Under the pieces are notes generated by a model that saw only the letters and a program-made list of their open reading frames with translations, ran no database searches and was not told the origin of the DNA. A stretch of DNA of 64,000 nucleotides from Cognatundibacterium squillarum (GTDB taxonomy: Bacteria > Pseudomonadota > Gammaproteobacteria > Burkholderiales > Burkholderiaceae_D): positions 1-64,000 of the forward strand of contig NZ_BMYU01000013.1 of assembly GCF_014652435.1 (NCBI RefSeq), written 5' to 3'. This document shows, piece by piece, positions 15,259-62,475 of the stretch. Every line of letters begins with the position of its first letter. The stretch's first letter is position 1. Made by a program: the position numbers and the translations under genes.

Positions 15259-15344
15259 CAAATGCGGTGTTCAGCACAGCACCCCCGCTGTCGTCGGCAG
15301 AAAGTCCGGGCTTGCGGAAATGGGGAATGCGGATAACTGCACAG
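15259..15344 (+). repeat. 86-nt dispersed element, copy A
   Basis: Begins CAAATGCGGTGTTCAGCACA, carries the family core GTCGTCGGCAGAAAGTC in the middle and ends with a second ATGCGG-type direct repeat (ATGCGGATAACTGCACAG). The first 65 nt are identical to copy B. It is preceded by a short run of CCTCA-type units (15235-15258). Confidence 0.85.
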
Positions 15345-15378
15345 CGCCCGACTGCGGCACTGCCGCGATACCTGCAGT

Positions 15379-16047
15379 TTACGGACGGGCGGCGGCCGGT
15401 TCCTGTTCGTAGCGCCTGTCAAAGATCGCAAAATTTTGCAGCGGAAATACCGGATACGGATGCTGATGTATGTCTGTACGGAGGACTTTTGCGCGACGGA
15501 ATTCACGGGTGATATGTTTGCCGCTGAGGAAGTTGCGTGAAACTTCGGTTCCCGGTTCAATTTGCTGCTGCGGGCCACACGCCGGTTCACTGGTATCCAG
15601 TCCGGTTACCCGCCACTCACCGCGTATCAGCGCAAAGCGGTACACCGACACATACACGCCGCAGGCACTGCGCGCATTCACCTGCAGCGAAAATCGCTGA
15701 TTTCCGTGGCTTTCCACAATCTCAATATCGGTACGGGCGCTGGGATCAGAAAAATCGAAAGTGGCAGAGCGCAGAATTTCCTGCATACGCCCGTCATCGT
15801 GCAAATCCAGCACAAACAGCAGCGCCTGCCGCTCCGCCGGATTCTTACCATGCACAATCCCGGCGATGCGCTGGCGTTGCCTGCCCTCAGGCTGGCTGGC
15901 GTAGTGCAGCACGCTGTCCGGCAACAGTTGCGCAGCATAGTTTTGCAGCAGATGACCGGTATCCGCCGCCCCGCTGTGCGCAGCGCAACACCAGAGCAAT
16001 GCTGACAGGCTTGTGCGCAGCAATGCGCGTTGCAGGAAAGGGAACAC
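15379..16047 (-). CDS. Secreted protein of unknown function
   Basis: I do not recognise the family. The product is about 222 residues with a signal peptide (hydrophobic stretch ALLRTSLSALLWCCAAHSGA) and then a soluble, mixed domain with two cysteines in the second half. I prefer GTG 16047 because GAGG lies six bases upstream; the frame stays open to GTG 16059. The gene stands alone between two direct copies (A and B) of the 86-nt repeat. Confidence 0.7.
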   Translation of the reverse strand: MFPFLQRALLRTSLSALLWCCAAHSGAADTGHLLQNYAAQLLPDSVLHYASQPEGRQRQRIAGIVHGKNPAERQALLFVLDLHDDGRMQEILRSATFDFSDPSARTDIEIVESHGNQRFSLQVNARSACGVYVSVYRFALIRGEWRVTGLDTSEPACGPQQQIEPGTEVSRNFLSGKHITREFRRAKVLRTDIHQHPYPVFPLQNFAIFDRRYEQEPAAARP

Positions 16048-16227
16048 GGGCAACCTCACAAAAATCGTCAGAAAGTGAACAGATCAGGGCAGCACTTATC
16101 TTAACCGTTCCGCCAGCGCGGCAAGTGTTTCGATTGCTGAGGCAGGAAAAAATCCAACGGCAGCGCGTGCTCCGGATACCAGCTCCACAGATCTGAGGAT
16201 GGCTCTGAAATCCACCCAAAAACACCT

Positions 16228-16313
16228 CAAATGCGGTGTTCAGCACAGCACCCCCGCTGTCGTCGGCAGAAAGTCCGGGCTTGCGGAAATGGCGGATGCG
16301 GATAGCGGCATAG
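16228..16313 (+). repeat. 86-nt dispersed element, copy B
   Basis: Same orientation as copy A and identical to it over the first 65 nt; the last 20 nt diverge (ATGCGGATAGCGGCATAG). Copies A and B flank the secreted-protein gene. The 380-bp gap 16060-16439 otherwise holds only the terminator at 16379-16409. Confidence 0.85.
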
Positions 16314-16378
16314 TTGCGTGTGGGTTGCGCTGCTGCGGACGACAATGCCGGTGAAAACACAGTTGCAGTGCTGAACGA

Positions 16379-16409
16379 AAAAAAGCCCGGAACCAGTCCG
16401 GGCTTTTTT
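16379..16409. terminator. Bidirectional terminator by the S9 peptidase gene
   Basis: Stem GCCCGGA (16385-16391) / TCCGGGC (16397-16403) is flanked by six A and six T residues, so it works on either strand. On the minus strand it ends the S9 peptidase transcript. No plus-strand gene lies just upstream. Confidence 0.85.
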
Positions 16410-16439
16410 GTCAGGCACACAAAGAATGAAGGCAGGTGC

Positions 16440-18578: not shown

Positions 18579-18692
18579 ATTTTTCTCGTGGAAAGGATTG
18601 GATCGCCGCCAGCGCGGCACTACAATGGACTGCTATTTGTACAACTAGTTCCGGCAATCCTGTGCCCGGAATCATGATCAGGAGAAATAAAC

Positions 18693-19193
18693 ATGCAAAA
18701 AGCACTGATGCTGCTGGCAGGCTGGCTGTTATCCGCCACTATGGCGCACGCTGACGACAATAAAGCCCAGTGCGATCTCGGCAAAGGCAGTTATATGACC
18801 GCCACCGTGATAAAAGGCCCGAAATTCACATCCGGCAAATTTCTGAAAGGCGTTGAACTGTCGCACACCCATCTGAAAGTGAAGCCGGATGGCAGCAACG
18901 ATATTTACGATGTGGCGATTGATAATGTGTTCGCTCAGGGCTACGAAAAAAACAGTAAGCAAGTGCCGGAATCGCTGGCGCAAATCCGCACCGGCGACAA
19001 GCTCGCGCTGTGCGGTCAGCTGTACGACGATGGCAGCAAAGGCATCCACTGGGTACACACCAATTGCGGCGCAACCCCGACACCGCAAAAGCCGAACGGC
19101 TTTATCAAAATCATCGAAAGCGATGGCAGCAGCGATAATTTTGAAAACGTCACAACCTATTGCGATTTGTGGGGTAAGCAGCGCAAACGCTGA
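18693..19193 (+). CDS. Small secreted protein of unknown function
   Basis: A 166-residue product with a clear signal peptide (cleavage likely after MAHA, about residue 20). The mature part has four cysteines spread as possible disulfide pairs (C27, C102, C125, C157 approx.) and no family I recognise. AGGAGAAATAAAC gives a good ribosome binding site. It is monocistronic, divergent from the S9 peptidase, and followed by its own terminator. Confidence 0.75.
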   Translation: MQKALMLLAGWLLSATMAHADDNKAQCDLGKGSYMTATVIKGPKFTSGKFLKGVELSHTHLKVKPDGSNDIYDVAIDNVFAQGYEKNSKQVPESLAQIRTGDKLALCGQLYDDGSKGIHWVHTNCGATPTPQKPNGFIKIIESDGSSDNFENVTTYCDLWGKQRKR

Positions 19194-19219
19194 TTTTCTT
19201 TTTGCCGGTACGCACTCAG

Positions 19220-19245
19220 AAAAGCAGGCGCAGGCCTGCTTTTTT
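19220..19245 (+). terminator. Terminator after the small secreted protein
   Basis: Stem GCAGGC/GCCTGC with a GCAG loop, flanked by four A and about six T residues. Confidence 0.8.
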
Positions 19246-19289
19246 ATTGCCTTACTGCTGTATGTACATCGCCCGGCTGCGTTGAAAAA

Positions 19290-19329
19290 TTCGGGAAAAA
19301 TCCTTGTCAATTACCGAATTTCGGGAAAA
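19290..19329. promoter_or_regulatory. Direct repeats upstream of the IclR gene
   Basis: TTCGGGAAAA occurs at 19290-19299 and again at 19320-19329, exactly 30 bp apart (about three helical turns); the second overlaps a small palindrome CCGAATTTCGG. The location 65-105 bp ahead of the regulator start suggests an operator, possibly for its own product. Confidence 0.35.
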
Positions 19330-19394
19330 TAAGCTTGTTGCCTGACAGCGGCTTGACTAGCATGTGCTGACTTGTGGTCTTTATGTGATGTGTG

Positions 19395-20144: not shown

Positions 20145-20153
20145 GGAAACATC

Positions 20154-20969: not shown

Positions 20970-20972
20970 GCT

Positions 20973-22343: not shown

Positions 22344-22423
22344 AGCTACCGGAGGGCTTATGCGGTAATCTGCATTCCTGATTACCGGTGCGTGCTGAAA
22401 CTAAACGATTGTTTAATGGTCTC

Positions 22424-22458
22424 ACAGCCTGTGATGTTGCATCACAGGCTGTTTTTTT
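22424..22458 (+). terminator. Terminator of the hutGF operon
   Basis: A 12-bp perfect stem (ACAGCCTGTGAT / ATCACAGGCTGT) with a 5-nt loop and seven T residues. Confidence 0.95.
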
Positions 22459-22497
22459 GTGTCATAACAGCGAAAAAATGTATGAAGTTACTTTTTT

Positions 22498-22506: not shown

Positions 22507-22587
22507 GCCTGACGCCGCAATCCCGGTGTGGTGTGCAGCAAACACGCTGCAGACTTCAAAATTTTTACAGAAAGAACTGGATACACC

Positions 22588-25522: not shown

Positions 25523-25608
25523 TTATGCAGAGGTCCGCATGTTGGGTTTGCGGAGCCCCGCACTTTCTGCCGACGACCGCCGCATTGCTGTGCTGGAATC
25601 CGCAAATA
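25523..25608 (-). repeat. 86-nt dispersed element, copy C
   Basis: Minus orientation and the most diverged copy, but the core (GTCGTCGGCAGAAAGT on the minus strand) and both ATGCGG/TTGCGG ends are kept. It is preceded, in its own orientation, by the clearest 10-nt array of the family (25611-25660). Confidence 0.75.
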
Positions 25609-25773: not shown

Positions 25774-26724
25774 TCAGGTACCGGTTTTTGGCTGGTCGTT
25801 GTTGTGATCTTCCGGCACGGCGACCGGTGCATCTTCCTCTTTCTTGCTGAAGAATTTACGTACAGCCATGCCCAGACCAATCACACCGGCAATCGCCAGT
25901 TTGGCAAATTTGGCGAGGAAGGCGGCGATGATTGCGAAGAAGCCGAGTTTTTTCGCGGCGACACCGGCAATCAGCGCAGCCAGTCCGTATTCCGCCACTT
26001 TGTCTGTCGCCGGATTAAAGTCAGCGTAGCGCTTGCCTTCGTTAAACTCCAGATTATTCAGCAAAGTTTGCGCGTAGGCTTTATCTGCGCCGATCTGGCT
26101 GGCGGAAGTAATCATATTCACGCTGATATAGCCTTCGCGTCCCAGTGCATAGGTGTTGTAGTTGACGCCCGGATCAGGATCTTCCCCCTGTTTTAATTTC
26201 GCAAGAACAGACCAGACCAGACGATGGCTGGCTGCGTCGTAATGCGGTGCTTCGGCCCAGCGATCCACCATAATCGCCGGAATACCCATTTTTTCGCGTT
26301 CTTTATTTTGTTCTTCCGTGCCTTCTTTCAGGCTTTTCAGCAAATCGTCGGCATTCCAGTTTTTCGCATCATCGTCTTTGATGTAACCGGATTTTTCCCA
26401 TTTGGCGACCGCCATCCACTGGCCTTCGCGCGGGAAAATCAAACCCAGTGTGGTCGGGTCATTGTGATTACCCATGGCCTGCATAATGCGGCCGGCTTCC
26501 GGCATCGGAATATAAATCTGATTGGCGGGTAATTTCAGATCGGCCTGATCATTCATATGAATGACGGCAGGGCCTTCGGTTTTGACTTTCGACGCAGCAT
26601 CGTAAGCAGCTTGCAGCGCTGCTGCGCGCGGATCTGCCGGTGCGGAAGACTGTTGTGCTGTTGCCGGTGCAGAAAGGCTGGCGCTGAGCAGCGCGGAAAT
26701 GCTGAAAATACGCAGATAAGACAT
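25774..26724 (-). CDS. DUF2167 membrane-anchored protein
   Basis: The 316-residue product has a signal peptide (MSYLRIFSISALLSASLSA), a soluble domain of about 220 residues typical of DUF2167, and a C-terminal hydrophobic hairpin (about residues 245-290) ending in a charged tail. The function of the family is not established. GGGA six bases before ATG 26724 supports the start. Upstream lies the 267-nt inverted-repeat element. Confidence 0.8.
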   Translation of the reverse strand: MSYLRIFSISALLSASLSAPATAQQSSAPADPRAAALQAAYDAASKVKTEGPAVIHMNDQADLKLPANQIYIPMPEAGRIMQAMGNHNDPTTLGLIFPREGQWMAVAKWEKSGYIKDDDAKNWNADDLLKSLKEGTEEQNKEREKMGIPAIMVDRWAEAPHYDAASHRLVWSVLAKLKQGEDPDPGVNYNTYALGREGYISVNMITSASQIGADKAYAQTLLNNLEFNEGKRYADFNPATDKVAEYGLAALIAGVAAKKLGFFAIIAAFLAKFAKLAIAGVIGLGMAVRKFFSKKEEDAPVAVPEDHNNDQPKTGT

Positions 26725-34719: not shown

Positions 34720-34805
34720 TTATGCAGAACCCCGCATTAGCAATTTCCGGAAAGCCAGACTTTCTGCCGACGACCGCCACAGAGCTGTGCGAAAGTCCGC
34801 ATTTC
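34720..34805 (-). repeat. 86-nt dispersed element, copy D
   Basis: Minus orientation; nearly identical to copy E through the core and the AGTCTGGCTTTCCGGA hairpin. It is preceded in its own orientation by three or four 10-11-nt units (34806-34840, CGACTTCAGG type). It lies past the 3' end of collagenase 1. Confidence 0.85.
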
Positions 34806-35039: not shown

Positions 35040-38000
35040 TCAGTATTGCGTTGTGACTTTCACGCCGGAGAATCCGCTGGTGGCGTACAGACTGACGAAT
35101 ACATAACCAGCTGGCGGATTGTTGATCACAACCGATTCAGCATTGCCGGTTTTGTAGGAACCGTAGTTGTAGTAATCACGGGTTGCCCAGGTGCCCAGTG
35201 TGCTGACATACAGATCTGCATTGCCAGTACCGCCGGATGTCGTGATGGTCAGCTTCGGTGTGCCTGCAGGTACGTTGATGTACATGTAGACATAGTTACC
35301 GGCTGTGGCACTCAGATTGCTGCGGGTGCAGTTCTTGCCCAGTGCTTCAGCGCTGCCGGAACACTCTGGCAGGCTGCCGCCACCGGAAGTGACAGCCACG
35401 GATTTAGACACAGTTGCAGATGCACCGGCATTGTCTTTCACTGTCAGTGTCACGGTGTAGGTTCCTGCTGCCGCGTAGGTTTTGCTCGGATTCACTTCGG
35501 CAGAGGTCGTACCGTCACCGAAATTCCACAGACGTGAAGCGATTGTGCCATCGGCATCTGTAGACGCATCGGTGAATTTGTATGTCAGCCCGTTCGACGT
35601 CATGCTGAATGCAGCAACCGGTGGCTTGTTGGCGGTATCGTTTTTCACCGTCACAGTTTTGCTGACCGTGGTGGCTGCACCTGCATTGTCTGTGACTGTC
35701 AGTGTCACCGTATACGTACCTGCTGCAGCGTAGGTTTTGCTCGGGTTTGCTGCGGCGGACGTTGTGCCATCGCCAAAGTTCCAGCTGCGGGATGCGATGC
35801 TGCCGTCTGCATCGGTGGACGCATCAGTGAAGTTCACTGTCAGGCCGCTGGCTGTGCTGTTGAATGCAGCAACCGGTGGTTTGTTGGTCTGATCAGTACT
35901 GACACTCAGCGATTTTGTGACGCTGGCAACTGCACCGGCGTTATCGGTTACTTTCAGTGTGACCGTGTACGTACCGGCTTTGGTATAGGTTTTGGACGGA
36001 TTAACAGCGGTAGACGTCGTGCCGTCACCAAAGTCCCACAGATACGAGGTAATCGAGCCATCACTGTCGGTAGATGCGTTGCTGAAGTTCGCTGTCAGTC
36101 CGCTGGCGCTGGCAGAGAAAGCAGTCACCGGTGGATTGTTGACTGGTGGCGTGCCACCGCATTGCGGCAGAGCCGGATTGTTCACGCATGGCAGCCAGTT
36201 AGCGAAGTCCGCATCTAAAGACGTACCGATGCTGTTCATATAACTGCTGTAGCTACTGAAATTTCCGGGACGGAAATAACCGAGCATAGACGAAACTTTG
36301 TCACGCTGTTTTTCAAACATATAGCGTGCTGCCAGATAACCCCAGTTGTAGATACGCGTCGAGTCGGGGCTATACACATTGGCGAAAATTTCACTCAGAC
36401 GGTAGGTTTTCAGATCTGCCTGTTTTTTCGCATCCGCATAATCCAGTTTGCGGTAAGAGTAAGACATATACTCTGCGAAACCTTCTATCCACCAGATCGT
36501 TTTCGGTACCGACGTGGCAGCGTTGAAATCGCCATACAGATTGAAGCGCCCATCCAGATAGTGGATGTATTCATGCGTCAGATTCCAGATTTCAAATTTC
36601 GGCAGCATCCAGGTTGCCTGATATGCAATAAAGCGTGGCTGATTATTCGGATCTGCCGGATCGCCTTCCAGATACATACCACCATTATTATCTGTTCTGA
36701 TACCGAACATCGAACCGGCATAACTCTGGTAGCTGTCGCGGTCTTTGTAAATCACCATTTCCAGCTGAGTGTTCTGGTCATTGGCTACCGGTGTATTGTT
36801 AGATTTAACGACCTTGTGGAAATAAGACTCTTCACCAGCAACAATATTACATGCTTCCTGTAACTGCGTCTGCGTCAGCGCCTGTGCCCGCAGTCGCAGG
36901 GTTGGTGAGCAGTTGTATTTGATCGGCAGAATCGCGGCATCCATTTTGCTCTGGAAATCGCAGAGGTTGTAGTAACTGCAATTCGCTTTATCGTAGTAAT
37001 CGATCATTTCACCCAGACCGAGCCAGACCGGTGTTGTGATACCGCTGTTGGTGGTGCGGTCTAACATGGTTTTGACGCGGGTTTTGGTCAGATTTTTCAG
37101 TGCAGAGCCATCCGGATACTGGAGGAAACGTGCCATTTCCCGTCCGGTATTCGATACCAGATAACTGTTATCAGTGCCCAGTACGCTCCAGTTGGTATTC
37201 ATGAAGTTGTACAGGGTGTCAATGATGGAGGTGTCAGACTGAACTAAAGTCTTGAAGTCATTGTTGTAGTGGCCACGGAACAGGACAGTGAGGGAATTAT
37301 TGACTGCGGTACGCATCCAGCGATAGTTCAGGAAACTGCTGTTCAGTGTCAGCATGCGTTTTACCACACTGTTTAAATAACGCGCATTCAGACCGGCGCT
37401 GTCGACCAGCGTGACAAATTCACTCAGCACTTCGCCGTGGACATCGTTAATCAGTCCGAAATTTGCATTGGCGATATAAGCGTCCATTGCTGACTGAACA
37501 GCAGAGCGCAGATTGGCACCATACGTGCCAACGGCGGTTTCCGAGTATTGCACGTAGTAACCGGCACGCAGAAACAGAACCAGTTGCAGAATGCTGGAAG
37601 TATTGGTGCCATCGTAAGATGCAGCTGCATTGCGGAAGGCATTCGCGACCGTCACCATCTGACTCTCATTGAAAATCGATGCAGCCTGCGCACCCTTCAC
37701 ATTAAATAAACTATTAATACAAGTGGTCGCTGATGAGGTGATCTGGCTGACCAGTGCACTGCCACTGGCGGCCGCAAATGCGGCAGCGTCACATCCGGCC
37801 GCAGCAGCTGTATTCAATCCTTTGGCTGCAGCAGCTTTTTCTGCCTTCGACTGATTTGCTTTCAGCGCAGACGGACGGAAAAGACTGGCAGCCTGTTTAT
37901 TGTTGTAGTCGAATTTCTCATTTGTTGATGGGCTGGACTGAACCGGTAGACGCTCAGCCGGACTGAGTTTTTTGTGCTGAATATGCGACCCGAAAGTCAT

Positions 38001-38150
38001 GTTTTCTGCAGAGTCAGATTTGTAGATTTTCAGCATATCTTTGCTGTGTGTTTCATGCGCGAAGGCATCGGTACCACACAAGCTGAATACAGAAAATACC
38101 GCGGCTGACATGGTGAGCAGACGGGCTTCAGAAAAATTTTTGATGTTCAA
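35040..38150 (-). CDS. Secreted M9 collagenase with three PKD domains
   Basis: A 1036-residue Vibrio-type microbial collagenase. Order: signal peptide (about residues 1-31), M9 N-terminal region, catalytic domain with zinc motif HEYIH at about residues 526-530 and the downstream Glu in WWIEGFAEYMSYSYR, three PKD domains (about 672-925, each with a WxFGDGTTS core) and a C-terminal PPC domain ending KVTTQY. Start: TTG 38150 with GGGAG six bases upstream; the downstream paralogue uses the same arrangement. A minus-strand terminator follows. Confidence 0.93.
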   Translation of the reverse strand: MNIKNFSEARLLTMSAAVFSVFSLCGTDAFAHETHSKDMLKIYKSDSAENMTFGSHIQHKKLSPAERLPVQSSPSTNEKFDYNNKQAASLFRPSALKANQSKAEKAAAAKGLNTAAAAGCDAAAFAAASGSALVSQITSSATTCINSLFNVKGAQAASIFNESQMVTVANAFRNAAASYDGTNTSSILQLVLFLRAGYYVQYSETAVGTYGANLRSAVQSAMDAYIANANFGLINDVHGEVLSEFVTLVDSAGLNARYLNSVVKRMLTLNSSFLNYRWMRTAVNNSLTVLFRGHYNNDFKTLVQSDTSIIDTLYNFMNTNWSVLGTDNSYLVSNTGREMARFLQYPDGSALKNLTKTRVKTMLDRTTNSGITTPVWLGLGEMIDYYDKANCSYYNLCDFQSKMDAAILPIKYNCSPTLRLRAQALTQTQLQEACNIVAGEESYFHKVVKSNNTPVANDQNTQLEMVIYKDRDSYQSYAGSMFGIRTDNNGGMYLEGDPADPNNQPRFIAYQATWMLPKFEIWNLTHEYIHYLDGRFNLYGDFNAATSVPKTIWWIEGFAEYMSYSYRKLDYADAKKQADLKTYRLSEIFANVYSPDSTRIYNWGYLAARYMFEKQRDKVSSMLGYFRPGNFSSYSSYMNSIGTSLDADFANWLPCVNNPALPQCGGTPPVNNPPVTAFSASASGLTANFSNASTDSDGSITSYLWDFGDGTTSTAVNPSKTYTKAGTYTVTLKVTDNAGAVASVTKSLSVSTDQTNKPPVAAFNSTASGLTVNFTDASTDADGSIASRSWNFGDGTTSAAANPSKTYAAAGTYTVTLTVTDNAGAATTVSKTVTVKNDTANKPPVAAFSMTSNGLTYKFTDASTDADGTIASRLWNFGDGTTSAEVNPSKTYAAAGTYTVTLTVKDNAGASATVSKSVAVTSGGGSLPECSGSAEALGKNCTRSNLSATAGNYVYMYINVPAGTPKLTITTSGGTGNADLYVSTLGTWATRDYYNYGSYKTGNAESVVINNPPAGYVFVSLYATSGFSGVKVTTQY

Positions 38151-38496: not shown

Positions 38497-38582
38497 TTGT
38501 GCAGAACTCCGCATTAGCAATTTCCGGAAAGCCAGACTTTCTGCCGACGACCGCCACAGAGCTGTGCGAAAGTCCGCATTTG
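38497..38582 (-). repeat. 86-nt dispersed element, copy E
   Basis: Minus orientation, sitting between the two collagenase genes. It differs from copy D at only a few positions. The remaining part of the 659-bp gap 38151-38809 is AT-rich upstream sequence of collagenase 1 plus the terminator of collagenase 2. Confidence 0.87.
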
Positions 38583-38809: not shown

Positions 38810-41800
38810 TCAGTATTGCGTCGATACTTTCACGCCGGAGAATTTACTGCTGCCATACAGGCTGACAAACACATAGCCTTCAGGCGGGTTGTTGATGGTG
38901 ACAGAAGACGATGCTGCCAGATTTTTCTGCGGCAGATTGTCGGATGTCGGCCATGTACCATTGGTACTGATCAGCAGGTCGGCCGTTCCTTTGCCGCCGG
39001 ACTTGGTGATCACCAGTTTCGGTGTGCCAGCCGGGACATACAGATACATGTACACAAACTCACCTTTTTTCGCGCTGAGGTTGCTGCGTGCACAGTTCTT
39101 GCCCAGCTGTTCTGCCGCGCCTGCACATTCCGGCAAGTCGGTCGTGCCGCCCTGATCGGTTACCGTGACGGATTTTGTAATGACGGAAGTTGCACCGCCA
39201 TCGTCAGTCACGGTCAGCTTCACGGTGTACACGCCGGCTTTCGCATATTTCTTGGCCGGATTGACTGCTGTCGAGCTGGTGTTGTCACCGAAGTCCCAGA
39301 CGCGTGAAACAATCTTGCCGTCCGCATCGCTGGAAGTGTCGGTAAATACTGCAATCAAACCATTCGCACTGCTGCTGAAACCGGCAACCGGTGCCTGATT
39401 ACCGCCGTTATCCTTGCTGACTTTAAACGATTGTGCGGCACTGGTGGTGCTTGCACCTTTGTCGTCAGTCACTGTCAGGGTCACTTTATAAGTGCCTGCT
39501 GCGCTGTATGTTTTGCTCGGATTGATTTCGGCAGAACTGGTGTTGTCACCGAAGTCCCATTTACGCGTAACCACTTTACCGTCAGCGTCGCTGGATTTAT
39601 CCGTGAATTTGACGGTCAGCCCGCTGACTGCGCCGCCAAAGTCGGCGACCGGTGCTTTGTTGGCTGCCTGCGTTACTGTGACGGTTTTGCTGATGCTGGT
39701 GGTCGCGTCTGCGTTGTCAGTCACTTTCACGGTCACGGTGTAAGTGCCTTCTTTCGCAAAGGTTTTGACCGGATTGGCATCGGTGGAATTGCTTCCGTCG
39801 CCAAAGCTCCAGCTGCGGGATTTAATACTGCCGTCCGGATCGCTGGATTTATCGGTGAATGTTACTTTCAGGCCGTCTGCAGCAAAGCTGAAGTCAGCAA
39901 CCGGCGGTTTATTCGCGGTGGTCGATTTGACCGTGACATCCTGACTGATATTGCTGGTCGCATTCTTATCATCTGTCACTGTCAGTACCACTTTGTACGT
40001 ACCGTCTTTTGTGTACGATTTCAGCGGACTGGTTTCCGTGGATACCGGTGTGTTGTCACCGAAATTCCACTGACGCGATTTTACGGTGCCATCAGCATCG
40101 GTGGATTTATCGGCGAACTGAACACTCAGGCCATTCACTTTGGCATCGAAAGCGGCTTTCGGCGGCAGGTTGCTATTATCGACAACCGGGCATTGCGGCA
40201 ATGAAGGGTTATTGACACATGGCAGCCAGTTCGAGAAATCGCTGTCCAGCGAAGTGCCGATGCTGTTCATGTAGCTGTTGAAGCCTTTGTAATCGCCGGA
40301 GCGCAGCTGACCAAGAATACTGCTGACCCGGCCGCGCTGTTTCTCAAACATATAGCGTGCAGCCAGATAGCCCCAGTTGTAGACGCGGGTCTGACCGGAG
40401 TTATAGTCATTGGCGAAAACTTCACTCAGACGGAAAGATTTTAATCCGGCTTCTTTTTTCGCATCAGCGTAGTCGAGTTTGCGGTAAGAGTAGGACATGT
40501 ACTCAGCGAAACCTTCAATCCACCAGATGGTTTTCGGCACGGAGATCGCATCATTGAAATCACCGAACATATTGAAGCGCCCGTCCAGATAGTGGATGTA
40601 TTCGTGCGTCAGATTCCAGATTTCAAATTTCGGCAACATCCACTCTGCCTGATAGGCGATAAAGCGCGCCTGATTATTCACATCCGACGGATCACCTTCC
40701 AGATACATACCGCCGTTGTTGGTATCAATGCCGAACAGCGATCCTGCATAGGTGCCGTAATCTTTGCTGCTCTTGAAGATCACCATTTCCAGCTGTTTAT
40801 TATTGTCTTTTGCCACCGGTACGTTGCCCGATTGCACTTGCTGGTGGAAATAACCTTCTTCACCACCGACGATACGGCAGGCTTCTTCCAGTTGTGCTTG
40901 TGTCAGTGCCTGTGCGCGCAGACGCAGGGTCGGTGAGCAACTGTGTTTGATCGGCAGAACCACGGTGTCCAGCTTGGTCTGGTAATCGCACATGTTGTAG
41001 TAGCTGCAGTTTTTCTTGTCGTAGAACTCGATCATCTCGCCCAGACCGACCCAGACGGACGCGGTTTTATCGCCGACATTACTGCGGTCCACCATCGCCT
41101 TGACGCGGCCTTTTGCCAGATTTTTGATCGCGCTGCCATCGGTGTATTGCAGGAAACGTCCGAGTTCCCGCGCGGCATTGGAGACCAGGAAATCATTGTC
41201 GGTACCGAGGACACTCCAGTTGGTATTCATGAAGTTATACAAGGTGTCGATGATCGATGTATCCGATTGCACCAGTTGTTTAAAGTCGTCATTCTGGTGG
41301 CCGCGGAATAACACGGTGAATGCATTGTTAACCGCGCTGCGCATCCACCATGAATTCATGAAGCTGTTGTTCAGTGTCAGCATACGTTTCACGACACTGT
41401 TCAGATAACGGGCATTCTGATTGGAGCTGTCTACCAGTGTAACCACTTCGGACAGAATCTCGCCGTGCGCATCGTTAATCGTGCCGAAATTCGCATTGTT
41501 AACAAAGGCATCCAGTGCACCCTGAATGGCGCTGACCAGATTCGCGCCGTAATTGCCAACGGCTTTATCGTAGAACTGCACATAGTAACCAGCACGCAGG
41601 AACAGCACCATTTGCGCAATATTGCTGCTGTTGGTGCCGTTGTATGAGGATGCTGCATTACGGAAAGCATTCGCGACCGTTACCATCTGGCTTTCTTTGA
41701 AGATCGCATTCGCCTGACTGCCGGAAACGCTGAATAAATCATTGATACAGTTAATATCCGAGCTTTTGATCAGGCTGACCAGTGCAGATCCCGATGCTGC

Positions 41801-42163
41801 TGCAAATTCACTGACATTACAGGCAGCGGCCATCGCTTTTTTATCTGTGGTTGCAGACGTGGCTTTCGCGATAGCGGAAGGACGCATCAGTGTGCGCGCC
41901 TGACTTTTGCTGTAATCGAATTTAGCAGTCACGGAAGAAGGTGCCTGCTTAGGAAGACGCTCCGCCGGACTCAGTTTGTGATGCTGGTGGTGCTGACCGA
42001 AAATCATTGATTCCGCTGAAGACGATTTGCGGATACTGTTTTTTTCAACTGCGTGATGTTCACCGGCAAAAGCGGAAGTGCTGCAGGCGGCGAATGCGGA
42101 TGCCACAGCAAGAGAAATGCTGAGCATGCGCGTTTCAGGGAAGAAGCTTTTCGTAGGATTCAA
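38810..42163 (-). CDS. Secreted M9 collagenase with four PKD domains
   Basis: A 1117-residue paralogue of the neighbouring collagenase. Signal peptide (about residues 13-33), M9 catalytic domain with HEYIH (about residue 520) and WWIEGFAEYMSYSYR, four PKD domains (WxFGD cores) and a C-terminal PPC domain ending KVSTQY. One PKD domain more than its sister. I place the start at TTG 42163 because the context GAGACAATTTTG matches the sister gene; the frame opens six codons earlier at TTG 42181. Confidence 0.92.
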   Translation of the reverse strand: MNPTKSFFPETRMLSISLAVASAFAACSTSAFAGEHHAVEKNSIRKSSSAESMIFGQHHQHHKLSPAERLPKQAPSSVTAKFDYSKSQARTLMRPSAIAKATSATTDKKAMAAACNVSEFAAASGSALVSLIKSSDINCINDLFSVSGSQANAIFKESQMVTVANAFRNAASSYNGTNSSNIAQMVLFLRAGYYVQFYDKAVGNYGANLVSAIQGALDAFVNNANFGTINDAHGEILSEVVTLVDSSNQNARYLNSVVKRMLTLNNSFMNSWWMRSAVNNAFTVLFRGHQNDDFKQLVQSDTSIIDTLYNFMNTNWSVLGTDNDFLVSNAARELGRFLQYTDGSAIKNLAKGRVKAMVDRSNVGDKTASVWVGLGEMIEFYDKKNCSYYNMCDYQTKLDTVVLPIKHSCSPTLRLRAQALTQAQLEEACRIVGGEEGYFHQQVQSGNVPVAKDNNKQLEMVIFKSSKDYGTYAGSLFGIDTNNGGMYLEGDPSDVNNQARFIAYQAEWMLPKFEIWNLTHEYIHYLDGRFNMFGDFNDAISVPKTIWWIEGFAEYMSYSYRKLDYADAKKEAGLKSFRLSEVFANDYNSGQTRVYNWGYLAARYMFEKQRGRVSSILGQLRSGDYKGFNSYMNSIGTSLDSDFSNWLPCVNNPSLPQCPVVDNSNLPPKAAFDAKVNGLSVQFADKSTDADGTVKSRQWNFGDNTPVSTETSPLKSYTKDGTYKVVLTVTDDKNATSNISQDVTVKSTTANKPPVADFSFAADGLKVTFTDKSSDPDGSIKSRSWSFGDGSNSTDANPVKTFAKEGTYTVTVKVTDNADATTSISKTVTVTQAANKAPVADFGGAVSGLTVKFTDKSSDADGKVVTRKWDFGDNTSSAEINPSKTYSAAGTYKVTLTVTDDKGASTTSAAQSFKVSKDNGGNQAPVAGFSSSANGLIAVFTDTSSDADGKIVSRVWDFGDNTSSTAVNPAKKYAKAGVYTVKLTVTDDGGATSVITKSVTVTDQGGTTDLPECAGAAEQLGKNCARSNLSAKKGEFVYMYLYVPAGTPKLVITKSGGKGTADLLISTNGTWPTSDNLPQKNLAASSSVTINNPPEGYVFVSLYGSSKFSGVKVSTQY

Positions 42164-42478: not shown

Positions 42479-42564
42479 TTATGCGGTTTTCGGCAATTCA
42501 GTTTTCCTGATCGCCAGACTTTCTGCCGACGACCGCCAGGGTGCTGTGCAAAAGTCCGCATTTG
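42479..42564 (-). repeat. 86-nt dispersed element, copy F
   Basis: Minus orientation. The core (GGTCGTCGGCAGAAAGTC) and the CAAATGCGG end are intact, while the distal third has drifted. It lies upstream of collagenase 2. The 607-bp gap 42164-42770 otherwise holds AT-rich leader sequence and a terminator. Confidence 0.75.
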
Positions 42565-55812: not shown

Positions 55813-55859
55813 ACCTTCACCGTCATTGCGCAGACACTGAAAAAACGCTGAAAACACCT

Positions 55860-55945
55860 CAAATGCGGAGTTCAGCACAGCGATCCGGCGGTTGTCGGCA
55901 GAAAGTCTGGTTCTCCGGAAATGACGGATGCGGAGAGTTGCATAG
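55860..55945 (+). repeat. 86-nt dispersed element, copy G
   Basis: Plus orientation, 47 bp past the permease stop. Begins CAAATGCGGAGTTCAGCACA and ends ATGCGGAGAGTTGCATAG. Two A-rich 11-nt units (CACTGAAAAAA, CGCTGAAAACA) precede it. Confidence 0.87.
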
Positions 55946-56002
55946 TCGGTGAGCCTATTTCTGGTGATGGATGCCGATTCACTGTACAAGGGACAGCCGA
56001 CT

Positions 56003-56341
56003 TTATTTTGCGTGAGCCAGATCCTGAGCAATCAGTAATTCTATTTGCTTCATTTTTTTCAGTTGATGCTTGTAATCTGCGATTTCAATGCGCTCGCAAA
56101 CTGGTACAGAGTCTGATTGCACTCTGTCGAGTTCGATTTTGACGAGATAGGCGCCATCAACCAGAACTAAATAGATATCCTCGTCTTGCTCAGGAGTCCA
56201 GTTCAAGGTAAATGCGTGAGCGGTTGAGTGCCCTTGTTCTTCCAGTGCACTTTTCAGTCGTGAAGGTGATTGGAAGAATGTATTTGATTTCAGAAGTTGC
56301 TCGCGAATATCGAGTTCTGTTTTGCTTTTAATGAGCTTCAT
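56003..56341 (-). CDS. Hypothetical protein
   Basis: I do not recognise it. The product from ATG 56341 is 112 residues, charged, without signal peptide or membrane segment; the C-terminal part has regular Lys/Leu/Ile heptad-like spacing (DYKHQLKKMKQIELLIAQDL). The frame is open to ATG 56467 (154 residues), and neither start has a strong ribosome site. The region is AT-richer than its surroundings. Confidence 0.5.
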   Translation of the reverse strand: MKLIKSKTELDIREQLLKSNTFFQSPSRLKSALEEQGHSTAHAFTLNWTPEQDEDIYLVLVDGAYLVKIELDRVQSDSVPVCERIEIADYKHQLKKMKQIELLIAQDLAHAK

Positions 56342-56548
56342 AAATGAATCCGGATGACTATCTGATAGTGCGAACGTGGAAAGTTTATTGTTGCGCCGAC
56401 ATATTTTTTCTTGCGATGAAGGATGCAAATCAAAAAGCGCGCTTTTTGAGCCGAGGCGATGCTTCATCCTGCCTGATATAGCAAAGATGAGAAATCAATT
56501 CCTCATGAATGGTAGGATGCATAACAGTCAGAATTGAAAGAGCATTCG

Positions 56549-57205
56549 ATGAAATACTTGGTACAAATTTTCGCGATATTAGCATTGTCCGCTTGTGGCA
56601 CGATGATCGCCAAAGTCGCTGATTTTGATCTTGAGGGAACACTCACTATACGAAATCAGTCTTCTGAACCGGTTGAAAAAATCGTACTGTCGAAAACCTT
56701 CAAAGATCCGAGGAAAATATCTCCGTACGCAGATCTGTTCTGTGACGGGCAGTTGATGAGTGCGAATTTCAGTATTAATTCTGACTTCATTCGCATGAAT
56801 TTTTACAACAAATCAAATGGTCAAATAAAGCTCCGCTTCGATGAGGCGGAACTCAGGAGTAATTTCCAGCCAAAAGGGGTTAAGTTGAAAGTTTATAGCT
56901 CAGTCATTGCTGCTGACACACGTTACTCGGATACCGTGACTAAGGGCGTCGTAAAAAATGCGCCTGCGCTGATATTAGATTCTCATCAGAAAAGCACTAT
57001 TTCAATGTCGCCCGATTTCTCCGGTGTTTTTCCAAATAAGAAAATATTCAATATCAGGCTTGATGAAAACGAACGTTACTATCTCGATAATTTAACACCA
57101 TCAAATCTTGAGTTGAGCATTCCGATCGAGTATGAAGGGCGAAGTGAAATATTGATTTTAAATTTTTCACCGACTTCAATAAACTCGCGCCAGTCATACC
57201 GTTAA
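56549..57205 (+). CDS. Putative lipoprotein of unknown function
   Basis: A 218-residue product whose N-terminus (MKYLVQIFAILALSACG) is a lipoprotein signal with lipobox LSAC, cysteine at about residue 16. The mature part is rich in beta-prone stretches and matches no family I know. Base and codon use is clearly AT-richer than the neighbours, suggesting transfer. Divergent from the hypothetical gene at 56003. The gap 57206-57383 shows nothing else. Confidence 0.65.
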   Translation: MKYLVQIFAILALSACGTMIAKVADFDLEGTLTIRNQSSEPVEKIVLSKTFKDPRKISPYADLFCDGQLMSANFSINSDFIRMNFYNKSNGQIKLRFDEAELRSNFQPKGVKLKVYSSVIAADTRYSDTVTKGVVKNAPALILDSHQKSTISMSPDFSGVFPNKKIFNIRLDENERYYLDNLTPSNLELSIPIEYEGRSEILILNFSPTSINSRQSYR

Positions 57206-57383
57206 TTCAGTATTCTTCCATTGCACTGCGAAATCGTATCAATCTATCGGACCTGATCCTGAACTATCGACAGCATAGTGGATGTCTGTAAGCTGAAGCT
57301 TCCGGAAGTTATCGCAAGCTTCCCGCCCTCATAGTCTGATCGGATGAGGGTGAACGCTGAGATGTACTTTTTGAAATTGAAAA

Positions 57384-57938
57384 TCACGGATCGCCATCGT
57401 CAGTTTGAATAGCGCTTTGACATTGCACCTCTAAATCGCTGACATCAATACACCTTACCAGCACATACCGCTTGCTCAGCAAAAACCGGTTAGGCCGGCG
57501 CATCAGCGCTGACCAGTGCCAGTTCCGGCTGCCTTGCGGGTTGACCGTCACTTCCCACGCCTGATTTTTTTCGTAGTACAGCCGCCAGTTACGCGCCTGC
57601 GGGGTTTCATCGTCCCGCGGTTTGCAGATCACATGGAAGCTAAATTGCAAAGTATTTGCGCTGATTCGCTGTACTTTATCGACAAAGCCAAAGCTGTCCG
57701 GCAGCGTCAGCTGATCGAGCAGGGTGTTGCTTCTGAACAGATACAGCCAGTGGTTGCAGCCGTCGAAGTAATCATAGTGGGTGGCGATCAGGGTCAGTTC
57801 GCCGAAGTCCTGCTGAAAACTGATGGCCTCGCCATTGACCACAGCAATTGGCTGGCCTTGTGCATTCAGCAGTTTGCTTTGGTATTCGCTGTGGCTGCGC
57901 AAGCTGTAGCGCGGCGGCCGGTTTTCGTCGGTGATCAT
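57384..57938 (-). CDS. Hypothetical protein
   Basis: A 184-residue soluble protein starting MITDENRPPRYSLRSHSEYQ, rich in aromatic and charged residues, with no signal peptide and no recognised domain. ATG 57938 is chosen; the open frame extends into the 86-nt repeat copy H up to 58010, which only reflects the repeat sequence. It follows the LytTR pseudogene on the same strand. Confidence 0.6.
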   Translation of the reverse strand: MITDENRPPRYSLRSHSEYQSKLLNAQGQPIAVVNGEAISFQQDFGELTLIATHYDYFDGCNHWLYLFRSNTLLDQLTLPDSFGFVDKVQRISANTLQFSFHVICKPRDDETPQARNWRLYYEKNQAWEVTVNPQGSRNWHWSALMRRPNRFLLSKRYVLVRCIDVSDLEVQCQSAIQTDDGDP

Positions 57939-58007
57939 CGCTGGCAGGGTTGATGTGTTGCTGCGATTGTAAGTCGCCGGACGGTAAAAAACAGCCTGAA
58001 AACACCT

Positions 58008-58093
58008 CAAATGCGGAGTTCAGCACAACGATCCGGCGGTCGTCGGCAGAAAGTCTGGTTGTTGGGAAATGACAGATGCGGAGTCTGGCATAG
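58008..58093 (+). repeat. 86-nt dispersed element, copy H
   Basis: Plus orientation. Begins CAAATGCGGAGTTCAGCACA, ends ATGCGGAGTCTGGCATAG. The small inner hairpin (TCTGG/CCGGA in other copies) is weakened here. It lies between the LytTR gene end and the hypothetical gene start, both on the minus strand. Confidence 0.87.
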
Positions 58094-58158
58094 TGGTAAC
58101 TGATACCGACGGAGAATCCTGGTACGGTTCCGATGACGCTGATTCTTTTCGCTATGAC

Positions 58159-58911
58159 TCAGAGGCTCAGCAGGTTTTTGAGTTCTGTTGCCTGTCTGCG
58201 CGATACTTCGATGCGCTTTCCGTCACTCATGGTGATCATATAACCGTCACGGATGGATTCCTCTATGCAACTGATTTCCCGCAAATTAATCAGGTGCTGG
58301 CGGCTGGCGCGAAAGAACAGGCTGACGGGTAATCGTTCTTGTATGCTTTGCATACTCTTTTTGACATAGGCATGCTGATCACCAAAAAAGAGTTGCACAT
58401 AGTTTTTGCAGCTTTCGATATAACGTATTGCGATCAGATCGATCAGATGACAACGGTCACCGTCTTTAACAAAAATTTTGCTGCCGGTTTCTAAGGGCGG
58501 TAGTGCAGGCTGTTTCGCATCGTCGCAGGAGGGCAGCTCGTCGTGCAGCGAAACATCACTTTGTGTACCTTGCACCAGTTTCGCAATAGCGGCATCCAGG
58601 CGTATCTGCGCGATTGGCTTCAGCAGATAATCGACAGTATTAAAATCAAAGGAGCGTATGGCGTACTCCGAATAAGCCGTGGTGAAAATGATTTTGGGTA
58701 AGTAGTCGAGTTACTCCAGCAATGAAAAGCAGGTACCGCCGGGCATGTGAATATCCAGAAATAACAGTTCGGGTCTTTCAGCATCGATGATTTCTCTGGC
58801 ACGCTGAATATTTTCTGCCTGACCAATCAGTGTAATATCTGAATACTGACTTAACATTCGTATCAAGCCTTCACGCGCCAGTCGCGAATCTTCCACAACA
58901 ATCGCTCTCAT
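58159..58911 (-). pseudogene. LytTR response regulator interrupted by an in-frame stop
   Basis: Read through, this is a normal 250-residue LytR/AlgR-type regulator. The receiver domain (MRAIVVEDSRLAREGLIRML, phospho-Asp in LLFLDIHMPGG) runs into TAA at 58711-58713 after FSLLE. The same frame continues without shift (LDYLPKIIFTTAYSEYAIRSF) into an intact LytTR DNA-binding domain. A single C-to-T change of CAA (Gln, the usual residue in LLEQL) would explain it. Its ATG overlaps the kinase stop (ATGA). Split translation or readthrough cannot be excluded. Confidence 0.8.
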
Positions 58912-60011
58912 TGTCTGATCTCCTTCGGTATCTGCAACAGCACTGCAAATGCGGGTTTTTCCGGCGGGGTTTCCTGTACGTGTACGCTCAGCACTGCTTT
59001 GCTGCCGTACAGCAGCGTGATACGTTTGCGTATATTTTCCAGACCGATACCCAGTGTGGCCGCTGGTTTGTCGTTACTATAGCCGGCGGGCAGATCATTG
59101 CTGATGGTAAATATCAGGGAGTCCGCCTGTTCATTTGCGTGCAGCGACAATAAACCGCCTTCCGGTATCTGTTCAATACCGTGTTTGATCGCATTTTCAA
59201 TCAGCATCTGCAAGATCATGGGAGGCAGTAAGCATGGGTACAGGCTGGTGCTGACGCTGATCCGTAGCTGCAGACGTTCTTCCATCTGAATTTTCATAAG
59301 CGCTAAATAGCGTTCAATGATATTCAGTTCTTCCTGCAGGCCGACTTTGTCGCGATGACTGCTGGCAAGTGAGTAACGCAGAATCTCCGACAGGGCGAGC
59401 ACCATTTCATCGGCATTCCGCGTATTTTCATGCATCATGAAGCGGATATTATTGAGCGCATTGAACAGGAAATGCGGGTTCAGCTGATTCGATAAACTAC
59501 TCAGCTGCGCTTCTTTCAGCGTGTTTTGCAGACGCAGATTCCGCAGTTCTGTGTCTTTAATCCGGCGTGCACTGGTCACACTGATGTAGATGAAAATCCA
59601 GATACAGATGAATAACTGGGCTTGCAGTGCGCCGCCAGTCAGCATGCGTAAGGATAAGCCGGCGCTGGCGGCTGACGGATCGTGCCCGGCGGGGCCAATC
59701 CAAAGCATCAGGCTGGAAAACAGTGCCACACTCACAACCACCAGCACAGCTGTCAGGCTGCCATAGGCAATCGACAAAGAAACCAGTTTCGCCATGGCCA
59801 GTTGTTGCCAGTCCCGGGTCAGGAACAGGTAGCGGAAGCCAAGTACTGCGGCGCTGTAGGGCAGACACCAGATCAGGCTGGAGATTACATTGGTCAGTGA
59901 CAATTCGCCCCAGAACTGAAATGTCAGTAGCGTGATGATGACAATGGCAATTACTGCGACGGCATGAAAACGCCAGAACCACTGGTCGCGCGGAAAAAAA
60001 GAGTGAGTCAT
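58908..60011 (-). CDS. LytS/YehU-type sensor histidine kinase
   Basis: A 367-residue membrane kinase. Four hydrophobic segments lie in the first 180 residues; then a His_kinase domain (PF06580) with phosphoacceptor QLNPHFLFNALNNIRFMM and an HATPase domain with LIENAIKHG and GIGLENIRKRL-like (GIGLENIRKRITLLYG) motifs. The start is uncertain: ATG 60011 begins just ahead of the first membrane segment, and the frame opens at GTG 60140. Its only cognate partner here is the interrupted LytTR regulator, with a 4-bp overlap. Confidence 0.87.
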   Translation of the reverse strand: MTHSFFPRDQWFWRFHAVAVIAIVIITLLTFQFWGELSLTNVISSLIWCLPYSAAVLGFRYLFLTRDWQQLAMAKLVSLSIAYGSLTAVLVVVSVALFSSLMLWIGPAGHDPSAASAGLSLRMLTGGALQAQLFICIWIFIYISVTSARRIKDTELRNLRLQNTLKEAQLSSLSNQLNPHFLFNALNNIRFMMHENTRNADEMVLALSEILRYSLASSHRDKVGLQEELNIIERYLALMKIQMEERLQLRISVSTSLYPCLLPPMILQMLIENAIKHGIEQIPEGGLLSLHANEQADSLIFTISNDLPAGYSNDKPAATLGIGLENIRKRITLLYGSKAVLSVHVQETPPEKPAFAVLLQIPKEIRQ

Positions 60012-60158
60012 AGAAAGCCGGGGGAAGTGCTGACGGACGCGGCTTAACATACCGGTGCCGGCACCGTATGGCAAGCAGCCGTTGAGAGAAATGCAGTGCA
60101 GACGTAATCCTGTGTTTGCCATCCTGACCTGCGCAGACACAGGATCTTCGCTGCGGCA

Positions 60159-62171
60159 TTACCAGATGCGTATGCGCTCCGTTGGCGGTTTGTACATGGC
60201 ATCACCTGCGCCGGTGCCAAATGCCTGATGAAAGCCATCCAGGTGAATAATGCTGCCATTAATGCGGAAAATATCCGGTGCATGCGGATCGGTTTTTAAC
60301 CATTGCGTCGCGACTTCCGGCCTGAATTTACTGCGTCGGCTTTGTGCATAACTGAGAAAAAACCGTTGCTCGCCGGTCAAACCGCCGGTCAGTCCGGATG
60401 GTTTGCCCTGCAAGGTTTTTTGATACGCCTGAAATGCAATATGCAAGCCGGACAAATCCGCCATGTTCTCCGCCAGTGTCAGTGCGCCATCGACTTTGTG
60501 TCCCGGCAGTAATTCGTAGGCATTAAATTGCTTGACCAGTTCATTGGCCATTCGTTCGAAAGTCTCCCGGTCACTGTCTGTCCACCAGTTACGTAAGCGG
60601 CCGTCTCCGTCAAACTGACTTCCCATCGTGTCAAAACCATGACTGATTTCATGTGCAATGGTGGCACCGATGGCGCCATAGTTGACTGCATCGTCGGCCT
60701 GCGCAGAGAAATACGGTTCCTGTAAATGCGCTGCCGGAAATTCCAGATCATTGCGTAAGGGATTGTATTGCGCATTCACCGTTTGCGGCAGCATATCCCA
60801 GTCGCGGTTATCCGCTTTTTTTCCTGCTCTCGCGGCATTATGTAACCAGTTAAACTGTGCAGCGCGATGGCGATTTCCGAGCGCATCTCCCGCAATAATC
60901 CGGAGTGCTGTGTAATCCCGCCAGCTATCGGGATAACCCACTTTACTGACGTACTTATCCAGTTTATCCAGCGCCTGTTGTTTGGTGGGCGCAGACATCC
61001 AGCTGACATTCAGTATCGCTTCGCGGTAAGTCGCTAACAGGTTATTCACCATAGCCTGTACGCGCTGCTTTTGTTCAGCAGGGAAATACCGTTCCGCGTA
61101 CAAACGTCCTACCGCTTCACCCAGCATCAGATTCAATTCTGCAATCGCTTTCTGTTCACGAGGGGTTTCTGTCTGCAGGCCTTTCAGCGTTTTTCCATAG
61201 AAAGTAAAGCGGGCAGCGCGAAATGCGTATGGCAATACCGGAACTGCCTCGTGCACACTCTGCAGTTTGAAGTAGGCTTTCCAATCGGATAAGGGCAGCT
61301 CTGCATACAATCCCGCAATAGCACTGATGGCACCCGGCTGCAAATTACTGAATACTTCCTGATGCGCTAACTGCGCGCCCGCAAAAAATGCCTGCCAGTC
61401 AAAATCCGGTGCGGTTTGTTGTAACTGGCGGATACTCATACTCGCCATCCGGCCCGGATCGCGGCTCATCGCCGGCGACCAGTGTGCTTGTGCAATCCGG
61501 GTTTCTACGCGTAAGGCTGCATCGGCCAGTTGCTGTGGTGACGGTTCACCTGCAAGACTGGCCAGTTGCCGTAAATAGTCACGGTATGCGCTGATGATTG
61601 CAGTGTTCTTTGGATTTTCAGCGGACAAATAGAAACTGCGGTCGGGTAAACCCAGCCCACCCTGGGACAGCATGGCGCGATTGGTTCCGGGATCTTGTAA
61701 GCCGGGCATCACAAAAGGTATAAACACCGGTGTTTCTATGCGGCCTTGCATCTCGCCCTGCAATTTTGCCAGTGCTTGCATATTTTGCACAGCATCAATT
61801 TTTTCTAATACCGGTTGCAATGGTGCGATACCACGTTTCTCTATCTCTGCAGTATCCATGTAACTCTGGAAATAACCCAGCACTCTGGCGCTGACGATAC
61901 GCTGCTGCCCGCTACCGGCAGATGGCGCTTTGCTGAGTTCATCGAGAATGCGGAGTATTCTCTGATTGGTGATTGCGGGCAGATCGGCACCGAATACATA
62001 GGATTTATCCGGAGGAATTTCCGTGCCGGACAACCACGCACCGTTGGCCGCCTGATAGAAATTGTCCTGATAGCGGACCGGTATCTGAGGATTGTGACCC
62101 GCGTCGTTTGCCAGTGCATTGTGGGAGTTGAGTGCCATTGTAAGCACGGTCAGAAGTATAAGAGATCGCAT
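60159..62171 (-). CDS. Secreted M13 (neprilysin/PepO) metallopeptidase
   Basis: A 670-residue zinc endopeptidase with a signal peptide (about residues 1-22), the M13_N helical domain and the catalytic domain with HEISH, the third ligand in ENMADLSG and the conserved C-terminal end with W. Substrates are small peptides. ATG 62171 has AAGGA six bases upstream; the frame stays open to 62408 in the repeat. It precedes the kinase and regulator genes on the same strand, so they may form an operon. Confidence 0.92.
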   Translation of the reverse strand: MRSLILLTVLTMALNSHNALANDAGHNPQIPVRYQDNFYQAANGAWLSGTEIPPDKSYVFGADLPAITNQRILRILDELSKAPSAGSGQQRIVSARVLGYFQSYMDTAEIEKRGIAPLQPVLEKIDAVQNMQALAKLQGEMQGRIETPVFIPFVMPGLQDPGTNRAMLSQGGLGLPDRSFYLSAENPKNTAIISAYRDYLRQLASLAGEPSPQQLADAALRVETRIAQAHWSPAMSRDPGRMASMSIRQLQQTAPDFDWQAFFAGAQLAHQEVFSNLQPGAISAIAGLYAELPLSDWKAYFKLQSVHEAVPVLPYAFRAARFTFYGKTLKGLQTETPREQKAIAELNLMLGEAVGRLYAERYFPAEQKQRVQAMVNNLLATYREAILNVSWMSAPTKQQALDKLDKYVSKVGYPDSWRDYTALRIIAGDALGNRHRAAQFNWLHNAARAGKKADNRDWDMLPQTVNAQYNPLRNDLEFPAAHLQEPYFSAQADDAVNYGAIGATIAHEISHGFDTMGSQFDGDGRLRNWWTDSDRETFERMANELVKQFNAYELLPGHKVDGALTLAENMADLSGLHIAFQAYQKTLQGKPSGLTGGLTGEQRFFLSYAQSRRSKFRPEVATQWLKTDPHAPDIFRINGSIIHLDGFHQAFGTGAGDAMYKPPTERIRIW

Positions 62172-62389
62172 GATTTTCCTTTTCGTCGCCGGCCGCTGAA
62201 TGCGCCGGCGTACGTGCATTATTTTGTGCCGCAGCCGGTGTAAGGAAAAAAGGTGCCGAATGGCGTAAGGCGGGGATAAGCGGATAAAAACCGCCATTCG
62301 CGGCAGGCTGCCCGCGCATCGCACCAACACAATTGCGCCTGATTTTCCGTTTTTCTGCTGCAGGTACTGAAAACATACCGAAAACACAT

Positions 62390-62475
62390 CAAATGCGGAT
62401 TTCAGCACAACGATCCGGCGGTCGTCGGCAGAAAGTCTGGCTGTCCGGAAATGACAGATGCGGAGTTCTGCACAG
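62390..62475 (+). repeat. 86-nt dispersed element, copy I
   Basis: Plus orientation, upstream of the M13 gene. Begins CAAATGCGGATTTCAGCACA; its last 18 nt ATGCGGAGTTCTGCACAG are the best match between the two terminal direct repeats. Preceded by ACTGAAAACAT and ACCGAAAACAC units. Confidence 0.88.

Follow-up and report, generated by a model that had tools for sequence, protein, structure and literature searches.

The window analysed here, a 64,000-nt stretch of contig NZ_BMYU01000013.1 of Cognatundibacterium squillarum, carries nine copies of an 85-nt intergenic element that recurs several hundred times in the genome. The reading that we tentatively favour is that the element is a DNA-wrapping repeat amplified in this lineage, and that accessory genes enter and leave the chromosome by recombination between its direct copies. 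This reading draws on the genes enclosed by close direct copies, on a locus with two copies in three relatives and one copy here, and on a G+C content phased with the helix turn.

The nine copies had been recognised by a sequence-only reading as a family of 86-nt elements in both orientations. Their positions and strands were correct, and the alignment is gap-free over 85–86 nt. The motifs that had been described as shared by all copies show small departures in five. The copy at 25523 begins with TTATTTGCGG, the middle motif is TGTCGTC in the copies at 15259 and 16228 and GGTTGTC in the copy at 55860, and the second ATGCGG is replaced by TTGCCG in the copy at 42479. None of the nine overlaps a called gene, as had been stated, the genes being called with a simple hexamer model and not with a standard caller. 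The expectation of hundreds of copies per genome also held. A whole-genome search, proposed with that reading, was performed on the own assembly (4.19 Mb, 20 contigs) with the 16-nt core GTCGTCGGCAGAAAGT. With up to two mismatches allowed, the core has 286 places and the reversed pattern 12; with up to one, the counts are 254 and 0. An iterated profile search found 135 copies in a sample of 1.26 Mb, made up of the 995-kb contig C1, the window and an initial 200 kb of C2. Scaling of this number gives about 364–449 copies genome-wide, roughly one per 10 kb. The profile and phasing counts below refer to the 106 copies with at most two core mismatches, the other 29 of the 135 having three or more.

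Close neighbours are mostly direct. Copies less than 5 kb apart form 38 direct and 9 inverted pairs, those 5–8 kb apart 12 and 7, and those at 8 kb or more 38 and 28. The genes between them were compared with the relatives over 384 kb of C1, which is colinear with genome G001 and largely with G011. A gene was counted as new, or as missing from the relative, when no tblastn match covered 40% of its length within 12 kb of the expected place, the search covering the syntenic places only and not the rest of the relatives' genomes. Overall, 54 of 313 genes had no counterpart at the syntenic place in G001. For direct pairs closer than 5 kb, all 14 enclosed genes were missing in G001 and all 11 in G011, where three genes were not covered; the null gave a mean of 2.4 and a maximum of 10 in 20,000 trials. 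Among the intervals between conserved neighbours, ten contain at least two elements, a number that no trial in 20,000 reached (null mean 2.5). The presence of new genes in such intervals follows from the way they are defined, and the null-based comparisons are the proper tests. New genes go with the close pair and not with the single copy. In the window, nine called genes lie inside three direct series and have no match in the corresponding stretches of seven relatives, of which G010 and G027 are partly covered and in which synteny ends near the six genes at 56–62 kb. The collagenase gene, its paralogue and three copies of the element stand where the three nearest relatives have a gap of about 100 bp. 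The two tandem paralogues (35040–38150 and 38810–42007) are themselves related, the second sharing the repeat families of the first at 61–84%. The copy between them is 98% identical to one flanking copy and 78% to the other.

A present/absent arrangement was observed at one place, locus A. The relatives G001, G011 and G061 each carry two direct copies about 1.7–2 kb apart with two reading frames between them. The own genome carries one copy there, the best-scoring among the matches scored by a genus-wide model. The left flank of this single copy matches that of copy 1, and the right flank that of copy 2, in each of the three relatives. The scores for the left and right flanks are 165 and 165.5 with G001 (shuffle maxima 55 and 72), 167.5 and 163 with G011 (60 and 66.5), and 145.5 and 180 with G061 (59 and 73); the six crossed flank comparisons (34–46.5) stay within the shuffle maxima. 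The pattern is that expected from cassette gain or loss by recombination between direct copies. A source element with a transposase between the relatives' pair was considered and rejected; in G001 one of the two enclosed proteins has a PT-HINT domain and the other is unmatched. Under the favoured reading, the element would be a DNA-level docking site for a protein that wraps about 230 bp. Recombination between direct copies, RecA-dependent or carried out by some recombinase, would insert and excise accessory genes as circles, and an empty slot would keep one copy where a filled slot would have two. Repeated exchange would also keep both copies of a locus alike.

The wrapping part of this reading comes from the base composition around the element. 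The G+C content averaged over the 106 copies oscillates with the helix turn. On the left, A/T-rich positions lie near –98, –89, –79, –68, –59, –49, –39 and –29 of the core, and in the right flank near +67, +77, +88, +111, +122 and +133. The 10.5-bp period has an amplitude of at least 0.05 and a slowly drifting phase from –93 to +138, or about 230 bp. The amplitude has a dip between +12 and +54, flanked by stronger phasing, and it is down to 0.01 between –135 and –93. Weak periodicity extends to about –245 and +195 as judged against 64 control windows, and a far-left window is flagged by a circular-shift null. The right flank (+56 to +141) has no conserved letters, yet its periodicity power is 0.119, the control maximum being 0.017 in 64 windows at 300–3000 bp. 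AAA and TTT interchange at the same positions (AA in 76 and TT in 24 of the 106 copies at –39/–38). Neither is found half a turn off at –40, –50 and –60, and at other half-turn offsets near the element their number is lower (5 against 30 at +77, for instance). Because the alternation of A/T and G/C tracts follows the helix turn even in the unconserved right flank, the DNA of the element is probably wrapped on a protein. Tandem T-tracts in the own arm of one orthologous copy have no counterpart in G001, which suggests that the arms can be shaped in place.

Gyrase is one candidate for the wrapping protein. According to the part of the source at hand, the cleavage sites of E. coli gyrase share a 130-bp motif with G/C variation phased at 10.75 bp, in which two phased 47-bp arms stand on either side of a 36-bp centre, and they are over-represented in BIME-2, a class of bacterial interspersed mosaic elements (BIMEs) (PMC6379681). 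The element resembles strong gyrase sites in its long, helically phased G+C variation and in flanks without letter conservation. It differs by a highly conserved 85-nt core and by a phased stretch longer than 130 bp; the published motif, as far as that part describes it, is degenerate and has no such core (PMC6379681). A somewhat unlikely alternative is that the element is a BIME-2-like topology site, with strong DNA wrapping by gyrase or a nucleoid protein at convergent gene ends, and that direct pairs reflect local duplication with no role in gene exchange. The phasing at about 10–11 bp and the published gyrase sites are in its favour, and the amplitude dip at +12 to +54 could reflect the unphased gyrase centre. 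The spacing of the copies along the chromosome fits as well, and so does their placement: a copy is present in 68 of 159 convergent gaps, in 54 of 677 gaps between tandem genes and in 7 of 157 between divergent ones. However, besides the differences in length and core named above, this alternative leaves the new genes between direct pairs and locus A unexplained.

Among seven single-element convergent gaps between conserved genes, five measure 205–473 bp in the own genome against 73–137 bp in G001; in the remaining two, the relative's gap is 1 bp or is occupied by other genes. Element-free gaps are slightly shorter in the own genome than in G001. Overlap with called genes is less than 20 nt for 130 of the 135 copies.

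The conserved unit itself runs from –30 to +54, is asymmetric with a sharp 3' edge, and holds about 114 bits. It contains two half-palindromes in the same direction, TGC-N8-GCA and TG-N10-CA, each in 104 of the 106 copies. A two-letter switch at +40/+41 (AC in 54 copies, CG in 42) gives two types of the second half-palindrome. Since the element is compact, conserved and intergenic, a structured RNA or regulatory leader was considered; this is most improbable. Compensatory changes, a check proposed with the sequence-only reading, were absent. RNAalifold on 81 of the 106 copies gave eight pairs, none with a compensatory change, at –4.35 kcal/mol, so that an RNA is unlikely and this explanation is largely refuted. 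A perfect stem of at least seven pairs is found in 3 of the 106 copies, against 2 of 106 after shuffling, the element occurs in both orientations relative to genes, and at gathering scores the Rfam matches in the window were one tRNA alone, none over the copies. The last result also agrees with the earlier statement that the element could not be named. Adjacent bases covary most strongly, as when AA becomes TT. Together with the lack of compensatory pairs, this points to an element recognised as DNA.

The likeness between neighbouring copies was measured on the 118 copies with at most four core mismatches. The 31 direct neighbour pairs closer than 5 kb have identities of 0.84 and 0.72 in the two outer parts of the unit, against 0.72 and 0.61 for random pairs. 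In 12 of the 31 pairs, the neighbour is the closest of the 117 other copies. Some pairs are 93–99% identical inside the unit alone with unrelated flanks, and others share 80 bp of the left arm or about 110 bp of the right flank. This likeness would come from recurrent recombination or conversion between copies, or equally from local duplication. It also bears on another explanation, namely a non-autonomous mobile element with precise ends at –30 and +54, moved by an unknown or lost transposase, for which the phased arms would be a preferred target and accessory regions would merely tolerate insertions. We regard this as unlikely. Hundreds of lineage-specific copies, the sharp 3' edge and the pairs alike only inside the 85 nt speak for it, and the element is short, non-coding and high in copy number, as are miniature inverted-repeat transposable elements and relatives of the insertion sequences IS200/IS605. 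On the other hand, neither inverted ends nor a target duplication of 3–11 bp was found in the 106 copies. The genome has one match to the Y1 transposase family PF01797 (C11:113908–114231), and no copy was found at E ≤ 10 in its 3.3-kb locus. The pairs with shared arms or flanks and the T-tracts that suggest change in place are also at odds with this explanation, which moreover predicts no direct-orientation bias. As a separate observation, two copies of GGGTCAGAGT lie near the Y1_Tnp gene and may be a small repeat family of their own tied to Y1_Tnp.

The distribution across genomes is narrow. The core at up to one mismatch was not found in any of the 35 other genus genomes searched, and among 24 genomes that each represent another family of the order, three had a single match. 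A sequence-only model applied to 42 other genus genomes detected diverged copies in G001 (three), G011 (two) and G061 (three), with two weak single matches elsewhere; it used strict filters with at most 82 candidates scored per genome, so that the own count is a lower bound and weak copies in other genomes may be missed. G001, G011 and G061 are the nearest of the compared genomes (88% identical over 1.5 kb of rpoB). Two of the relatives' copies are orthologous to own copies at C1:728482 and C2:124328, and others belong to locus A. Orthologous copies and small numbers in the relatives indicate a family that predates the split from these species and was amplified in the own lineage; the common ancestor would have held a few copies. 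One copy used as a query had no match at E 1e-5 among E. coli genomes, plasmids and phages, and an exact 21-nt core had none in viral contigs. An exact 18-mer gave at least six single matches, from unrelated phyla, in a contig collection. A literature search whose reach left out most subscription journals found no paper on the family.

Several observations weigh against the exchange part of the favoured reading. The inverted close pairs (n = 3) also enclose missing genes, 7 of 9. Of the 28 blocks of new genes, 12 have no element, and the 16 new-gene intervals with at least one element compare with 15.1 expected from gap length and type. Genes lie in either orientation to the element (24 of 58 in the same one). 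One present/absent locus was seen, and its three relatives probably reflect a single event. The own genome has seven tyrosine recombinases (PF00589) and the three copy-poor near relatives have 6–7 each; no dedicated recombinase was pinpointed, and no serine resolvase (PF00239) was matched in the own genome. Finally, a self-comparison of the 1.26 Mb, which listed matches ending within 150 bp of an element and excluded those wholly inside cassette genes such as the collagenase-like paralogues, found no cassette copied whole elsewhere. Six self-matches touch elements: two local copy pairs, one tandem duplication and three among dispersed copies.

Some of these places are of interest in their own right. 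A near-tandem duplication of 936 bp with 95% identity (C1:473582–475617) ends just before the copy at 475759. Dispersed copies at C1:111093, 144927 and 218390 share about 76 bp past the 3' edge and may form a longer subfamily. The idea of a native terminator copied into a cassette was considered at C1:648842, where the relative shows a different hairpin. One tyrosine recombinase of 337 aa (C1:247661–248674) adjoins the copy at C1:247581 and is a lead only. The region C1:244063–248674 has a 1008-aa HD-CE/HATPase protein between two direct copies, followed by this recombinase; from its domains we take the 1008-aa protein to be defence-like. At C2:20417–24574, genes that look parA- and parB-like by eye, a copy of the element and a 728-aa tyrosine recombinase are adjacent, and the region may be an integrated replicon.

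The family was also compared with known systems. Repetitive extragenic palindromic sequences (REPs) prefer gene ends. As reported in the available parts of two papers, REPs and BIMEs are short and intergenic and can number up to hundreds in one genome, as the element does, and BIME-2 binds gyrase (PMC2817692, PMC6379681). However, the element has no REP palindrome, its 85-nt unit is asymmetric, and a GT(A/G)G head occurs in 15 of 106 copies, anywhere and on either strand. The earlier statement that it is not REP- or BIME-like by palindromy is in line with this, stems being about as long as in shuffled copies and none being supported. Close copies are mostly direct, whereas the genes for REP-associated tyrosine transposases (RAYTs) are flanked by inverted REPs in the part of the source at hand (PMC2817692). 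A RAYT-linked family was rejected, the sole Y1 gene having no copies around it. MITE-like and IS200/IS605-like families differ by the features already named, inverted ends, target duplication and a linked Y1 transposase. The other comparison is with integron cassette arrays and their attC sites, such as the Vibrio VCR, whose ends are RYYYAAC and GTTRRRY. Here too direct repeats of about 100 nt bracket accessory genes and one site stays when the cassette is absent. In contrast, the element is dispersed over the chromosome and not gathered in one array, none of the 106 copies has the attC end motifs at its ends on either strand, no fold was supported with RNA parameters, and gene orientation is not fixed. 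An IntI-type integrase next to an array, a further mark of integrons, would have to be sought among the seven tyrosine recombinases, one of which (337 aa) adjoins the copy at C1:247581. The family is like REP/BIME in copy number and place and like integron sites in logic. Since it fails tested defining features of both, it is filed under neither. The further idea of a dispersed, genome-wide integron counterpart is doubtful. It would consist of several hundred wrapping recombination sites, distinct in type from attC, att and dif. Each would be a slot for accessory genes, either empty or filled; a recombination machine would act on the sites, which would have been amplified in one species of the genus.

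DNA uptake was also considered. The element would then be an uptake sequence kept by competence, with the core or the TGCGG motifs and the A/T tracts recognised, which we consider highly improbable. TGCGG presumably resembles the uptake core of H. influenzae. The uptake sequence of that species also joins a core to A/T tracts that are predicted to be bent, as the part of the source at hand describes it (PMC7811141). However, the same part gives a 9-bp core with 1,465 copies (PMC7811141), against 85 nt and about 114 bits here. The near-exclusive intergenic placement given above is a further difficulty, and uptake by itself leaves the direct pairs unexplained. The copies and enclosed genes of the window are listed in Table 1.

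Table 1. Copies of the element and associated genes in the 64,000-nt window.
Feature	Position	Strand	Basis
Element copy, 85-nt core unit, convergent gap	15260..15344	+	Alignment, profile
Element copy; brackets gene 15379–16047 together with copy 15260	16229..16313	+	94% identical to neighbour
Accessory gene between two direct copies	15379..16047	-	No match in syntenic stretches of 7 relatives
Element copy, single, beside gene 25774–26724 (DUF2167)	25523..25607	-	Gene not found in relatives' stretches
Element copy, first of three direct copies around collagenase gene and paralogue	34720..34804	-	Alignment, profile
Accessory gene, M9 collagenase with PKD domains	35040..38150	-	Pfam; not found in relatives' stretches
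Element copy between two paralogues	38497..38581	-	98% identical to 34720 copy
Accessory gene, collagenase-like	38810..42007	-	DNA similarity to 35040–38150 (repeat families D5, D7, D9)
Element copy, third of direct series	42479..42563	-	Alignment, profile
Element copy, opens three-copy direct series	55861..55945	+	Alignment, profile
Element copy, second of series	58009..58093	+	Alignment, profile
Element copy, third of series; BLAST query with 11 nt of flank	62391..62475	+	Alignment
Six called genes including M13 peptidase, between three direct copies	56003..62138	-	None found in relatives' stretches compared; synteny ends nearby
Helically phased region of first copy (core –93 to +138), about 10.5-bp spacing	15197..15428	.	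Average over 106 copies, not this copy alone

Short intergenic repeats are usually regarded as passive sequences or topology sites. The present family joins helix-phased and probably wrapped DNA with a measurable tie to accessory genes and with a present/absent locus at which the outer flanks match. If the wrapping alone is true, the genome would offer several hundred defined, natural phased wrapping sites for the study of chromosome topology. If the exchange between direct copies is true, a chromosome would have a way of offering many slots for gene gain without an array.

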